Assembly: GCA_948470755.1 (NCBI GenBank)
Contig: CAOKPU010000030.1
Location: 1-37,993 of the forward strand
DNA: 37,993 bases
Direction of reading: 5' to 3'
From: an uncultured Lachnospiraceae bacterium
GTDB lineage: Bacteria; Bacillota; Clostridia; Lachnospirales; Lachnospiraceae
The notes below the pieces were generated by a model. It searched no databases. It was given only the letters and a program-made list of their open reading frames with translations, and was not told where the DNA came from. The first letter of the stretch is position 1. Each line of letters starts with the position of its first letter. The position numbers and the translations under genes were made by a program. Shown here one piece after another: positions 30,221 to 35,911 of this stretch.

Positions 30221-33031
30221 CTATTTCATGATTTTCTTCATCAGCGCTTCATAACTGTCCGCCGTTTCATAGACGATCTGCCCATTGCCGACCGCCCTGA
30301 AATGCTCTTTTGCGCAATGGAACTTTGCTTTTTCCTCCATCCTGCGCCGCGCAGAGCCTGACGGATTCCCGATATCCGCAATCAGGCAGCGATGCTTTAA
30401 TCTCCCTTCATAAAAAGCAATTGCCCAACCGGGAGTATAACGCCCCGCCGGAGTGGGGATGGAAAAACCGTCCGGCAGTTTTACATATACAGCCACCTCT
30501 TCTGCCATATCCAGTTTTCCGGCAAACTCCCTCTCCTTTTTTGAATCGTATATGACATAATCATACAAATGTTTTTCCGCCTCCATGGCATCCTTGCCAA
30601 TCCTTCCCTTCATGGCCTGCTCCGTAAAAACATCCGTACCATATCTTTCCTCCAGGGGCTTATACGTAATATTCCCCATCATAGCGGCTGCTTTCTGTTC
30701 GTTTATGAGCAAGGCCGCCCTTCGGATAAATTCTTCCGGATTATCTTTAAACCGATCAAATACCGTTTGCCCAATACCCATCAGGACTTGGGTCACTGTC
30801 CTCCTTGTCAGTCCGGTTTCCTTTACGATCCCGCCGGCCAAGTCATATTTTATACCCGGATCCCAAGCCGTCCTCCCCCTTCCCTCATAATGGGAAGAGC
30901 TTCCCTTTATCATGGAAAGGCCGGAAAACATATCCCCTTCCCGTCCCACATCCCCCATCTGCCCCGATTCCACCTGAAAGGAAGCCTTCGGCACATCCAG
31001 CTTACGGTTCAGGGCCTCAATGCATTTACCGGCCAGCTCATTGTCGTCAAAATCTACGGTATATACCGATTTTGCATTCATTTTAGACCAAAGATCCTTA
31101 AATTCCCTACTGTTTAATTTTCTTTTATCCACCTTTAATTCTACATTCCTGCTGCGGGCGTTTTCCGTCATCAGCCTTGATGCTCCCATGGCCTGCCCGG
31201 CAATTTCCTTCTGCAGACCTTTTGCAAAGCTGTCATAGCTTTCGCTGGCAATCACCGTCAGGACATTGACCTTATGCACATCGCTTCCAAGGATGTCCGC
31301 GTCCATCCGCTCCCCTTCCCGGTTTACGCAAAGACGCAGCCCCCTCCCTACCTCCTGACGTTTCCTGACGCTGCTGTCACTATTCTTCAAGGTGCATATC
31401 TGGAATACATTCGGGTTGTCCCAGCCTTCCCGCAAAGCGGAATGGGAAAAGATAAATCGCACCGGGGATTTTTTCGGATCAAGTTCCAACAGCAGTTCCT
31501 TATTTTTCATAATCAGGTCATACGCATCGCAGTCATTGGAAATCCCGCCCCTTTTGTCATCCCCCTCAGCCCGGTTCACGATACGCCCTTTCTTATCAAT
31601 GGAAAAATATCCCGCATGAGTGCCTGACGCCGGAATGGCGTCCAGGTATTCCACGTAATCCCCGTTCCCCTCTTCATGCCGCAGGCCGTCTATGACATCC
31701 TGGTATTCTTCTTCAAACATTCGCGCAAAGACGCCATTGCCCGGCCGTCCAAGAAAATCATATACTTTATAATGAGCAACCTCGTCAATAAAAAATAAGG
31801 ACAGCACTTTTATTCCCATAGGGAACAACTGCCTCTCCCTGTCTATATGGGATAAAATCGTCTCACGGATCTGAATCCGGCGCAGTAGTCCTTCATCCGC
31901 CCTGCCTGCGATATCCCCGGCGTAAATCTTAATCCCATTGGCAAACTCTACCGAGTCATCCCGTCCGTCGATGTTTTTAACTACAAATCCCTCTTTATAT
32001 CCGGCAAGCCCCCCTGACTGCCTGTACAAATCAAACCCGATGCCGGCTTTTTGTGATTTCTTTCTGATACCGGATGCCGTCTTACAGTCAAACCAAATCG
32101 CAGCCGTAGGGGCCGCCTTCGACAAATGAATGCCTTCCAAATACACATAGCTTCCCGTTTCCGCCGTTTTGGACTCCGTAATCCCCTTTACCGCAATTTT
32201 CTTTACCAAGCCTTTATGATAGGCTTTGGCCGCATCCAGACGATAAACCATATTATAAATACTGTCCGGCTTGTGGGTGGCGGAATAACGCAGCGTCATC
32301 AATGGATGGAACTGCCTTAACCTCTCTTTCGTCCTTTCCCCCTCCACCGACTGCGGCTCGTCAATAATCACTACAGGATTTGTTTTTGCAATCAAATCAA
32401 TCGGCCTGCGGCTTCCAAACTCGTCCAGTCTCATGAAGATCCGCCTGGCCTCCTGCCCTTTTGCATTAAATGCCTGGGAATTGATAATCATTACATTCAT
32501 GCCGCTGTCCGAAGCAAAATGATATACCTCCCTTAGCCGCGAGGAATGATAAATAAAAAAGCGGATTTTCTTCCCGTATTCTTCTGCAAAATGATCCTGC
32601 GTCATTTGCAAAAAACGGCAGGCTCCCTCCCTGATGGCGATGCTCGGGACAACGATAATAAATTTGCTCCATCCATACTGTTTATTCAGTTCATACATCG
32701 TTTTGATGTATGTATATGTCTTGCCGGATCCTGTCTCCATCTCCACCGTCAGGTTGTACCTTCCTTCCAATCTCGGAGATAATGCGATCCGGTTCTTTTT
32801 TTGTATTTGACGGATATGATCCAGGATAACTCCATCCGCCAGCTTAGGCACAATCGGGGCGTTCGGCCATATTATGCCGGCCCCCTCCCGTTCCGGATTC
32901 CCTGTCCGGAAGCCGCATCCTTTGTTTTCCTCATAAGCGGATGTCATATAGGGCTGTCCGACAAACACATCTACAATTGCCCTAGCTGCATCCGCCTGAA
33001 ACTTCTGATGCTTAAACTGTAGTTCCATCAT
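30221..33031 (-). CDS. res: Type III restriction enzyme Res subunit with degenerate nuclease motif
   Basis: This 936-residue SF2 helicase-nuclease has the motor motifs intact: Walker A METGSGKTYTY (about 98-108), DEPQ (224-227), SAT (250-252) and motif VI RQEVGRGLRLCVN. The C-terminal region aligns in pattern with the Res PD-(D/E)XK domain, with YDSKKEREFAGKL and EKAKFHCAKEHF. Where the family has P-D-W and V-E-T-K-G, this protein has TPGW (Gly868) and ADIGNP (Asp886, Gly888). The metal-binding Asp and the catalytic Lys are therefore missing, and the nuclease is probably dead while the ATPase may work. It follows mod by 7 bases in one operon with a PD-(D/E)XK-like gene upstream. Start is ATG 33031 or the adjacent 33028, behind GAGGAGGG. 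Confidence 0.93.
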   Translation of the reverse strand: MMELQFKHQKFQADAARAIVDVFVGQPYMTSAYEENKGCGFRTGNPEREGAGIIWPNAPIVPKLADGVILDHIRQIQKKNRIALSPRLEGRYNLTVEMETGSGKTYTYIKTMYELNKQYGWSKFIIVVPSIAIREGACRFLQMTQDHFAEEYGKKIRFFIYHSSRLREVYHFASDSGMNVMIINSQAFNAKGQEARRIFMRLDEFGSRRPIDLIAKTNPVVIIDEPQSVEGERTKERLRQFHPLMTLRYSATHKPDSIYNMVYRLDAAKAYHKGLVKKIAVKGITESKTAETGSYVYLEGIHLSKAAPTAAIWFDCKTASGIRKKSQKAGIGFDLYRQSGGLAGYKEGFVVKNIDGRDDSVEFANGIKIYAGDIAGRADEGLLRRIQIRETILSHIDRERQLFPMGIKVLSLFFIDEVAHYKVYDFLGRPGNGVFARMFEEEYQDVIDGLRHEEGNGDYVEYLDAIPASGTHAGYFSIDKKGRIVNRAEGDDKRGGISNDCDAYDLIMKNKELLLELDPKKSPVRFIFSHSALREGWDNPNVFQICTLKNSDSSVRKRQEVGRGLRLCVNREGERMDADILGSDVHKVNVLTVIASESYDSFAKGLQKEIAGQAMGASRLMTENARSRNVELKVDKRKLNSREFKDLWSKMNAKSVYTVDFDDNELAGKCIEALNRKLDVPKASFQVESGQMGDVGREGDMFSGLSMIKGSSSHYEGRGRTAWDPGIKYDLAGGIVKETGLTRRTVTQVLMGIGQTVFDRFKDNPEEFIRRAALLINEQKAAAMMGNITYKPLEERYGTDVFTEQAMKGRIGKDAMEAEKHLYDYVIYDSKKEREFAGKLDMAEEVAVYVKLPDGFSIPTPAGRYTPGWAIAFYEGRLKHRCLIADIGNPSGSARRRMEEKAKFHCAKEHFRAVGNGQIVYETADSYEALMKKIMK

Positions 33032-33038
33032 GCCCTCC

Positions 33039-35006
33039 TCAAATCACTCTTATTTTCGTATCCGGAGACAAAAGCCGGAACATTTCCGCCATATTCATCT
33101 TCGCCGGACTGCCGGAAAAACTGCCGTCCTTAAAAACCACCTTACGAGGATGCTTTTTTGCGATTGCCATGATCAACGCATCCGGGATGTTTTCTGCAAA
33201 ACATGCAATCAAATCCCCGCTATTATAATCATGCACCATACACCCCTCCATTTCTTCCGACCGGCAGGGCAGCGACAGCGGAAGCCCCCATTCCAACAAA
33301 CATCCAAACAGTAAATCCAAATCCGTCCTGTCCTCTTTTATATCCTGCTCCAGCATGGCCAACAAGCTTTGCGTATACTCCTCCGGGGGATAATAAACTT
33401 CCTTGCGGTTGCTTTCGTCAACCTTTAACGCCCGGAAGCCATAATCAATATCTGCCTGTGTTGTTTCCCTGATCCATTCCCCGGCCCGGCGTATCCTCTC
33501 TCTCCCGATCTGGCATATATCCTGATAGCCTTGCCGGTAAGCCTCCGATTTTTCACGGATCCTTTCCGCTATCTGGACCATAATATATTTCCTTGTGCCG
33601 CCGTCTTCCGCATTCGCCTGCATCACCGCGTGGGCGGTCGTTGCCGAACCGGAAAAGAAGTCCATGACGATATCCCCATTCCCCGTCAGCGATTTGATAT
33701 GCTCTTTGCAGATATTGACCACCTTCGGCGTATCAAACGGGATTTCCATCTGCGCCAGCATATCCGTATCGCTGCCGCCATAATAAAGCAATGAAGGAAT
33801 ATTTTCATATAGGTTGTCCCTCAATAGATACTTGCTGTTCGGAATTGTGGTTTCGTCTTTGCCAAATAGGACCCTTCCCTCTTCCACCATTTTTTTCATA
33901 GTGGCGGGAGGGTTTCGCCATCCCCTTTCCGGCACCGGACAAGGTTTCTTCGTCACCGGGTGGATCAGGGGAGTAAAATAATCATCCGGCGCTTTTTTCT
34001 TATTCGGCCAGGCCATAGATACCGCACGGTAAACATTTCCCTGTTCATCTATCTTATTGTAAGCTTTTTCGCCGCCGCTGAAATCATGTTGCTTTCTCAT
34101 CCAGGCGGAAAACTCATGGTTGATGTCCTCCAGGGAAAGCCCTCTTCCATTTTCCGCATAAAGTTGCCCCGCTTTCTTCAATATCGCTTCCGCATTTTTT
34201 TTCGGCCTTTGCAGCCTGCATCTTTTCATAAATTCCTGCTTATTTCTGGCATATGCCACAATATATTCGTGCTGACAGGATATCCCTCTGGCGTCTCCCT
34301 TTGGATTCCTTTTATCCCAGACAATCGTACCAAGATCATTCCCTTCCCCGAATATCTCGGCGCAGATCTTTTGAAGATTGCTCATTTCATTCTCATCCAT
34401 ATTGATCAGGATGGCCCCGTCGTCCGTCAACAGATTCCTGGCAAGCATTAACCTGGAATAGATCATGGAACACCAGTCCGAATGATATTTCCCGGCCAGC
34501 CCGCTATTTTCCCTGCTGAAATTCACATTGCCGTCCTCGTCAAAATAACCTGTCCCATTGGCATATTCCTCATTATCCATGAGGAAGGAATCCGGATATA
34601 TAAAATCATGCCCTGTATTATACGGGGGATCGATATAGATCAGCTTAACCGCGCCCAGATAGCTTTCCTGCAGCAGTTTCAAGGTTTCCAGATTATCCCC
34701 TTCTATATATAAATTTTCCGTAGTATCCCAGTTTTTGCTTTCCTCCATATCCGGTCTTAAAGTCTTTTTTATCGGCCGATTGGCTTCCACAACAGCGGCT
34801 TTCTTTCCTACCCATGTGAACTCATAAGCTTCATCCCCGGGCATCACTTTGTCCGTCAACATCTGTTGAAGCATTCCCATATGCACCATCTGTTTCGGAT
34901 TGCCTTCCCCGTCTATGCCTTCCGTTATGCAATTAGGGAATATCTTTCCTAACAGGGCGACATTGCGCGAAACCATATCCGAAGACTCCATCCTCATCTT
35001 TTCCAT
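33039..35006 (-). CDS. mod: Type III restriction-modification methyltransferase Mod
   Basis: This 655-residue beta-class N6-adenine methyltransferase has motif IV DPPY at 126-129 (LIYIDPPYNTGHDF) placed before the AdoMet motif I at 450-457 (DFFSGSATT), which is the Mod order. The segment between, about 220-400, is the target-recognition region. The C-terminal ~170 residues are accessory. GAGGAGAGGG precedes the ATG. In type III systems Mod recognises the asymmetric site and methylates one strand, and associates with Res as Mod2Res1-2. All visible catalytic motifs are intact, so modification is probably active. It lies between the PD-(D/E)XK-like gene (73-base gap) and res (7-base gap). No simple-sequence tract suggesting phase variation was seen. 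Confidence 0.95.
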   Translation of the reverse strand: MEKMRMESSDMVSRNVALLGKIFPNCITEGIDGEGNPKQMVHMGMLQQMLTDKVMPGDEAYEFTWVGKKAAVVEANRPIKKTLRPDMEESKNWDTTENLYIEGDNLETLKLLQESYLGAVKLIYIDPPYNTGHDFIYPDSFLMDNEEYANGTGYFDEDGNVNFSRENSGLAGKYHSDWCSMIYSRLMLARNLLTDDGAILINMDENEMSNLQKICAEIFGEGNDLGTIVWDKRNPKGDARGISCQHEYIVAYARNKQEFMKRCRLQRPKKNAEAILKKAGQLYAENGRGLSLEDINHEFSAWMRKQHDFSGGEKAYNKIDEQGNVYRAVSMAWPNKKKAPDDYFTPLIHPVTKKPCPVPERGWRNPPATMKKMVEEGRVLFGKDETTIPNSKYLLRDNLYENIPSLLYYGGSDTDMLAQMEIPFDTPKVVNICKEHIKSLTGNGDIVMDFFSGSATTAHAVMQANAEDGGTRKYIMVQIAERIREKSEAYRQGYQDICQIGRERIRRAGEWIRETTQADIDYGFRALKVDESNRKEVYYPPEEYTQSLLAMLEQDIKEDRTDLDLLFGCLLEWGLPLSLPCRSEEMEGCMVHDYNSGDLIACFAENIPDALIMAIAKKHPRKVVFKDGSFSGSPAKMNMAEMFRLLSPDTKIRVI

Positions 35007-35079
35007 CCCTCTCCTCCTCTTCCATGCCTCATCCGCTTACTTTTACAGCCATACCAATCCAAATGGGAAACTCCACCTT

Positions 35080-35841
35080 TTAAACGCCCTGCCGCGCCAG
35101 CTCCTGTATCGTCCCATACCCCAGGAACCGGCAATAAGGGTCTTCCCGATGATCGAACCTAAAAAATTTTAATCTGGAGATATCATCCAAGAACGGATTC
35201 TTTATCCGGCGGTTATATACGATTAAAAATTCCATATTGCTTTTTACTGCCAATCGGGAAAGCAGGATAAAATTATCATAATCATCCGTATACGGCGTCC
35301 ATCGGTCTAACGTTATGTATGACCGTTTCAGTTCTATGATTTTAACCGGCAGATGATTCCTAAGCTGCAGCAAATCAATATCCGAAACGACTACCGAATT
35401 CCCCATATACGTTCTTTGCCACTCATGGTAGGGGCTGGAACTTCTGTCATTGATCATTTTACCAGCCCCCATATCGTTCATCTTTAACCCATACTTTGAA
35501 AAATGGCCGCGCAGGGCATCGGAAGAAATCACGGAAACTTTCTTCATTCCCGGTTCACAATATCCTACTTGATCCATAGGCCGGGCCGGGTCGAAACGTA
35601 CAAAATTGACAGATATACCGCTTTCCCCGGCAAGCCAGGCTGCCATATCCACTGCATTTTTCTCCTCATTGGTAAATGCCGCATCCGGCCTGTTTGCGGA
35701 AGCAACCGTAAGGACCATCGGTTCGCAATCCGCATTCCCATATACCAAAATCCAGATGTCCTTACCCGTCCAGAAGAAATCCCTTCCTTCTTCATGTTGA
35801 GCCAAATAATCATAAACGCCATTCCCATTATAATAAGCCAT
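35080..35841 (-). CDS. PD-(D/E)XK nuclease-like protein of the type III RM operon
   Basis: This 253-residue protein has no name I recognise. Its C-terminal half carries a PD-(D/E)XK-like signature: VVSDIDLLQL (D154/D156), then after about 14 residues KIIELKRSY (E170-L-K172), with a preceding helix containing E140 and a following strand MEFLIVYN. The N-terminal half (DIWILVYGNADCEPMVLTV and onwards) looks like an alpha/beta domain. It is the first gene of the operon with mod and res, behind GGAGGG and a good promoter. Because the Res nuclease motif is degenerate, this protein could supply the cutting activity in trans; that is inference. Alternatives are an inactive structural homologue or a separate defence effector. 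Confidence 0.7.
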   Translation of the reverse strand: MAYYNGNGVYDYLAQHEEGRDFFWTGKDIWILVYGNADCEPMVLTVASANRPDAAFTNEEKNAVDMAAWLAGESGISVNFVRFDPARPMDQVGYCEPGMKKVSVISSDALRGHFSKYGLKMNDMGAGKMINDRSSSPYHEWQRTYMGNSVVVSDIDLLQLRNHLPVKIIELKRSYITLDRWTPYTDDYDNFILLSRLAVKSNMEFLIVYNRRIKNPFLDDISRLKFFRFDHREDPYCRFLGYGTIQELARQGV

Positions 35842-35882: not shown

Positions 35883-35911
35883 ATTATATTCCATTGTCCA
35901 TCCAATAGCAA
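35883..35911 (-). promoter_or_regulatory. Promoter of the PD-(D/E)XK-mod-res operon
   Basis: On the minus strand -35 TTGCTA (35906-35911) and a perfect -10 TATAAT (35883-35888) are 17 bases apart, about 42 bases upstream of the first ATG. Confidence 0.7.

Follow-up and report, generated by a model that had tools for sequence, protein, structure and literature searches.

A type III restriction-modification operon with a lost Res nuclease site and a candidate separate nuclease gene in an uncultured Lachnospiraceae bacterium

The stretch of 37,993 nucleotides analysed here (contig CAOKPU010000030.1, assembly GCA_948470755.1), hereafter called the window, derives from an uncultured Lachnospiraceae bacterium and carries a type III restriction-modification operon of three genes, U, Mod and Res. 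In type III enzymes, the motor and the nuclease are taken as one chain. In the window, the C-terminal nuclease domain of Res has lost its active site, and the additional protein U retains residues of the kind that Res has lost, namely D-x-D and E-x-K. We give about an even chance to a three-part type III variant, with Mod recognising the DNA, Res as the ATP-driven motor and U as the cutter. Since the same pairing of U with an altered Res recurs in several relatives, we are probably dealing with a genuine variant rather than simple decay. Chance is not a sufficient explanation of the observation.

The operon and the nuclease domain of Res

Three open reading frames (ORFs) follow each other on the minus strand from position 35841 to 30221, in the order U, Mod and Res according to the ORF listing, with gaps of 73 bases between U and Mod and 7 bases between Mod and Res. 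The features of the operon are as follows:

35080..35841, minus strand: U, first gene of the operon, 253 amino acids (aa), candidate stand-alone PD-(D/E)XK-like nuclease (D154-x-D156 ... E170-x-K172)
33039..35006, minus strand: Mod, 655 aa, type III-type beta-class N6/N4 methyltransferase with the motifs DPPY and DFFSGSATT
30221..33031, minus strand: Res, 936 aa, helicase superfamily 2 (SF2) motor with intact RecA1/RecA2 motifs, a shortened helical spacer and a C-terminal PF19778 domain with a lost active site
30260..30577, minus strand: PF19778 endonuclease domain of Res, in which PGW and ADIGNP replace PDW and AETKGS
31166..31195, minus strand: junction of the spacer deletion in Res (residues ~613-622), where ~85 aa of most relatives are absent

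By their library matches, Mod and Res are clear members of the type III families. Mod is a beta-class N6-adenine methyltransferase of the type III family, matching PADLOC MTase_III (8.5e-213) and N6_N4_Mtase (3.4e-31). Res is a type III SF2 helicase-like ATPase, matching PADLOC REase_III (1.3e-257), Pfam ResIII (9.6e-14) and the EcoP15I Res in the PDB (4.7e-60). Its translation contains METGSGKT, DEPQ, SAT, REGWDNP and QEVGRGLRL, which we take to be the helicase motifs; all of them are intact, as an earlier note on this DNA had stated.

The earlier note had also claimed that the metal-binding Asp and the catalytic Lys of Res are gone, and this could be confirmed by alignment with EcoP15I and related Res proteins. 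Residues 819-924 match Pfam PF19778 (1.8e-25), and the nuclease site reads YTPGWA ... CLIADIGNPS, while the same columns hold YSPDFA ... FIIETKN in EcoP15I and PDWA ... AETKG(S) in related Res proteins. Thus, the metal Asp has become Gly, the Glu has become Asp and the catalytic Lys has become Gly, and with PGW/ADIGNP Res lacks an active PD-(D/E)XK site. An intact triad elsewhere in the domain had been named as a point that would speak against the note's reading; inspection by eye of the window's Res nuclease domain revealed no alternative D-ExK set. The altered domain is the sole PF19778 copy found in the window's genome (E <= 0.001; genome 92.5% complete), and the same holds for all five genomes with an altered Res (completeness 89-99%).

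Res has undergone a further change, which is absent from the earlier note. About 85 aa are lost in frame near residues 613-622, at the start of the helical spacer behind RecA2. In EcoP15I, RecA2 extends from 366 to 594 and the spacer from 620 to 810, followed by the nuclease domain (PMC4490356, available part). The same piece is also absent from the Res proteins of L068, L040 and L093 (L numbers designate the loci studied). Since L093 has the same gap and an intact site, the deletion is no marker of a dead enzyme and was rejected as such. At L093 (L093:1117-14658, plus strand), the Res lacking the spacer piece is located directly downstream of type I restriction-like genes according to the ORF reading, and Mod follows Res.

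The U family and the state of the Res site

The window's U reads VVVSDIDLLQL...KIIELKRSY, so that the core VVSDID...IIELKR is present as previously described. D154, D156, E170 and K172 are invariant in all 11 U members found. The alignment of the 11 proteins (426 columns) has 13 invariant columns, four of which form the D-x-D and E-x-K motifs, and U thus possesses an acidic-acidic-Lys core of the D-Xn-(D/E)XK type. The relatives are only 17-37% identical to the reference row, L061. Judged from these residues, U is a putative nuclease by fold and activity. The window's U has no match in Pfam or PADLOC and a single NCBIfam match far under the cut-off, and nothing of weight was found for the family in Pfam, NCBIfam, PHROGs, PADLOC or the PDB sequences (the latter searched with the family profile). 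The lowest library E-value, 0.0012, was obtained by one member with an uncharacterised PHROG. Comparison of U with the Res or YhcG domains by hhalign was negative; as the control pair YhcG-Res was negative as well, profile-profile comparison with known PD-(D/E)XK domains is uninformative. U represents an unannotated candidate nuclease family that is missed by defence-gene libraries.

The 11 distinct members are those of the window, L059 (=L074), L060, L061, L068 (=L069), L070, L071, L072, L073 (=L105), L075 (=L106) and L032. With U alone as the query, only its own genome was found among 61 relatives, no member was confirmed in the genome-contig collection, none was found in viral contigs or phages, and the plasmids gave one weak match, L032. 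A two-sequence profile likewise retrieved only the window's genome among 398 genomes of the phylum. The idea that U is confined to one genome was overturned when five of 299 sampled genomes of the bacterial family gave U matches, its own included (E <= 0.01), and by larger profiles. One of these five (G691, E 0.007) was dropped because blastp shows no U match. A five-sequence profile detected U in 5 of 397 family genomes, again including its own. Moreover, a pattern-based scan of species-representative genomes yielded seven U loci from 96 candidate stretches, two of which were already known, and further scans added none. Nothing was found in viral contigs with the U profile or in plasmids with two U relatives, and tblastn with the 11 U proteins over all loci fetched revealed no further copy. 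A U gene beyond the edge would escape detection at loci at or near a contig end, among them L039, L047, L051, L052, L098, L102 and L115.

Eight of the 11 U members belong to type III operons, in which U is adjacent to Mod and Res on one strand in two gene orders. The order U-Mod-Res is found in the window, L061, L068, L071 and L072, and the order Mod-U-Res in L059, L073 and L075. At L070, U is located at a contig end with neither Mod nor Res in view. The Res site is altered in five of the eight operons, and U hence does not occur only beside an intact Res. The earlier note had proposed to test whether the three-gene order recurs with the same Res substitutions; the arrangement with a damaged Res does recur, with altered sites in three clades, although the substitutions differ, as shown by the residues at the two halves of the site:

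Window: PGW/DIG
L059: PSW/DWI
L073: PSW/EWQ
L075: PNW/TQF
L068: PEW/ETR

All five altered Res proteins are long open frames of 932-1036 aa with helicase motifs, and the length of the nuclease domain has been kept despite the changed site. Among the 34 loci without U, 32 have an intact site (27 rows of the tree and the fragments L049, L052, L102, L114 and L115), the domain is missing from L040 and L051 is unreadable, which gives one loss in 33 readable loci. L051 is a fragment lacking the nuclease region; its 3.6-kb contig carries no more than parts of Res and Mod. In the most distant clade, the site is altered in 3/3 U-bearing operons (L059, L073 and L075) and intact in 4/4 operons without U (L047, L048, L103 and L104). 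For the 36 tree rows, Fisher's test gave a p-value of 0.0008, uncorrected for kinship and with L040 counted as altered. It should be considered that the two sets were drawn with different queries, the U-bearing one with U and the other with the window's Res, and that the family-wide Res searches scored only two or three candidates per genome.

The tree was calculated from the motor part of Res alone. With L040 included, the altered Res proteins fall into three clades and require four changes, at least three of which are forced by starred branches. L068 belongs to a starred clade (99/99) with L071 and L072, which are both U-bearing and have an intact Res, and its U is 62-69% identical to those of L070-L072 and 47-49% identical to the other listed members. 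As the altered L068 groups with these intact relatives and its U is nearest to theirs, parsimony suggests that in this clade U was probably gained first and the Res site lost later.

Other accessory genes help to judge whether any nuclease neighbour would be accompanied by loss of the Res site. A YhcG PDDEXK gene lies between mod and res in L036, L041, L094 (partial match), L096 and L098 (recognised among ten neighbour proteins scanned), and Res is intact in all five. Thus, a nuclease neighbour alone is not tied to Res loss. The accessory genes in the type III operons of the family include YhcG, RhuM and TIR-like genes, the last under the Pfam cut-off, and also occur at L045, L051 and L042; the places next to mod resemble hot spots for cargo. 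The possibility that U itself is one of these accessory genes (YhcG, RhuM or TIR) was rejected, as it has no such Pfam match, whereas the genes of neighbouring operons do (TIR under the cut-off). Upstream of mod, many intact operons share a gene pair of ~1,075-1,110 aa and 200-226 aa, recognised by length and position only (L035, L037, L041, L042, L043, L045, L046, L095, L099 and L100).

A proposed division of labour and its rivals

In the type III family, Mod is the recognition subunit and methylates one strand of an asymmetric site, and cleavage depends on ATP and takes place close to one of two inverted unmodified sites. In the proposed three-part variant, Res would bind Mod and act as an ATP-driven switch and slider that no longer cuts, while U, a stand-alone endonuclease of PD-(D/E)XK-like type, would be recruited to Mod-Res and make the cut. 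The loss of the Res active site is observed, its role as a motor is suggested by conservation, and the contact of U with Mod-Res and its need for ATP are putative. Such a system could have arisen from an ordinary Mod-Res operon that gained U, passed through a period with two nucleases and then released the Res site, which decayed. At least three Res lineages seem to have gone through a gain of U with decay of the Res site.

The strongest rival explanation is that U is an autonomous restriction endonuclease, which works with Mod in a type II-like manner or alone, with Res being kept as a motor or switch that displaces, blocks or senses foreign DNA without cutting. At L060, U lies tail-to-tail with a Mod-family methyltransferase gene, and no Res is present in the 19 kb fetched (~9 kb on either side). 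Furthermore, the nuclease domain length has been kept in the five altered operons, and inactive restriction endonuclease domains kept on type 3 BREX/BR helicases have been proposed to be sensors (PMC12839542, available part). However, 8/11 U members are located within or directly heading Mod-Res operons, and in the one clade with a readable order the loss of the Res site comes after U. It is also not obvious why the Res nuclease should become dispensable beside an independent nuclease, except where the latter did the same job. We regard an autonomous U as unlikely.

Simple decay is less likely still. According to this explanation, Res is being lost, Mod is kept for methylation or as an epigenetic module and U is an unrelated passenger. 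Phase-variable type III systems with a mutated res gene that retain Mod for epigenetic regulation have been described (PMC3874151, available part), no more than fragments of Res and Mod are seen at L051, and the motor branches of the window and L068 are long. Against this stands the fact that all five altered Res proteins are long open frames with helicase motifs; moreover, decay would need to strike U-bearing operons by chance in three clades. The conservation of the motor is also at odds with decay. Between L059 and L073, both altered, identity is 76% in RecA and 48% in the nuclease domain, while the intact pair L047-L048 shows 77% and 75%. The proportion of nonsynonymous differences (pN) in RecA is 0.155 for L059-L073 and 0.153 for L047-L048, with a synonymous proportion (pS) of ~0.81 in both; pN was preferred over dN/dS selection tests because the synonymous sites are saturated or nearly so. 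As the RecA identities match and that of the nuclease drops, the motor in the L059/L073 clade has been kept at normal stringency and the nuclease released. Thus, Res is not simply dead, which is clearest in this one clade; for the window and L068 the picture of a conserved motor is softer.

A third rival, in which U has the nuclease fold but regulates and does not cut, is very improbable. The putative status of its nuclease role and its presence beside an intact Res (L061, L071 and L072) would permit this, but the 13 invariant positions include residues of the catalytic type, which is unexpected for a non-catalytic copy.

Several observations weigh against the three-part variant itself. The Res site is intact in three of the eight U-bearing type III operons (L061, L071 and L072), and that of L068 shows no more than conservative changes (D to E, K to R). 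Apart from L060, the U gene of L032 is clustered with a methyltransferase gene, with one ORF in between and the gene of an unrelated helicase (PLD-SNF2) behind. Because of these two contexts, U may not need Res, and its partner may be Mod or none, which speaks against a strict three-part system. For the nuclease-to-RecA divergence ratio, the window's range of 1.42-1.80 overlaps with the 1.23-1.52 of the intact L033. The motor branches of the window (0.35) and L068 (0.66) exceed the median of 0.13, which fits a looser constraint on the whole Res. The tree program also warns that the placement of the long rows, L068 and L040, is unsure. Accessory genes, including YhcG, are common in such operons beside an intact Res. 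Finally, starred branches provide four independent pairs, too few for a sign test; in these pairs, the altered state never went in the opposite way to U. Because there are only four, the association of U with an altered Res is consistent and not formally significant. Thus, the suggestion of the earlier note that cutting has moved to a separate subunit is partly supported, by the recurrence and the conserved motor, and is weakened by the U genes beside intact Res and at L060 and L032.

The operon of L040 (family member G215) may provide a second case of replacement. Its Res is the sister of the window's Res (98/80), both on long branches. The relevant features are:

L040:3748-5913, minus strand: Res, which ends before the nuclease domain
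L040:6207-6998, minus strand: gene of 263 aa between mod and res

The 263-aa protein has no similarity to U by tblastn and no family match. It shares E...D...ExRSS with two homologs, one on a Virgibacillus plasmid (L107) and one on a Methanocaldococcus plasmid beside an N-6 methylase gene (L108), and has Arg at the place of the PD-(D/E)XK Lys. It may thus be a second, unrelated nuclease replacement. The broader proposal, put forward tentatively and somewhat short of an even chance, would be a split type III system, in which a new stand-alone endonuclease family has repeatedly taken over cutting with Mod-Res as the platform for recognition and the ATP motor, the Res active site has decayed afterwards, and a second family, that of L040, may have likewise replaced the lost domain.

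Surrounding features and comparison with known systems

Good ribosome sites precede both U and Mod; that of U, GTAGGAGG, is located upstream of the ATG. A promoter-like site also lies ahead of U:

35883..35911, minus strand: promoter-like site, TTGCTA-17-TATAAT, 10/12

This site would be a natural place for one promoter of all three genes. As promoter-like sites are no commoner in the region (9 observed) than in shuffles (mean 10.3), a single shared promoter is only plausible, by position alone. Ten larger ORFs in other parts of the window were scanned, and none of them is a defence gene; they concern sugar uptake, glycoside hydrolysis, two-component regulation, a MatE transporter and a BlaR1-type peptidase. 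A 490-aa ORF (window:28664-30136, plus strand) is convergent with Res. It has no substantial family match in Pfam, PADLOC or NCBIfam and a weak relative on a Nitrosomonas plasmid (22% identity over 56%); it could be another defence gene.

If a separate gene can provide the nuclease, the transition from ATP-driven sliding to cutting could be separated and tested, for instance with respect to the partner of U, the need for two sites and the licensing of different cutters by one motor. It would also call for caution when the Res motif is the sole ground for declaring a type III locus restriction-dead. Among the titles and abstract starts found in searches of mostly openly accessible literature, none describes a type III operon that combines a Res without nuclease activity with a nuclease encoded separately.

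The window's operon resembles EcoP15I and EcoP1I (Mod2Res1) in the Mod and Res families, the mod-res order, the SF2 motifs, the spacer and the C-terminal nuclease domain. It differs from them by the lost Res site, the shortened spacer and the extra gene U. Two genes suffice for classical type III systems (PMC3874151, available part), and their nuclease is part of Res (PMC4490356, available part). The type 3 BREX and BR helicases likewise keep a degenerate PD-(D/E)XK domain, with another domain or protein as the proposed effector (PMC12839542, available part); however, they have an SNF2 family helicase and partners other than Mod-Res. YhcG (DUF1016) is also a stand-alone PD-(D/E)XK gene in type III operons, but it belongs to a different family, and Res is intact in its five loci. 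The L040 operon, finally, resembles that of the window in the absence of the spacer segment and the presence of a small extra gene, whereas its whole nuclease domain is lost and the extra gene has no tblastn similarity to U.

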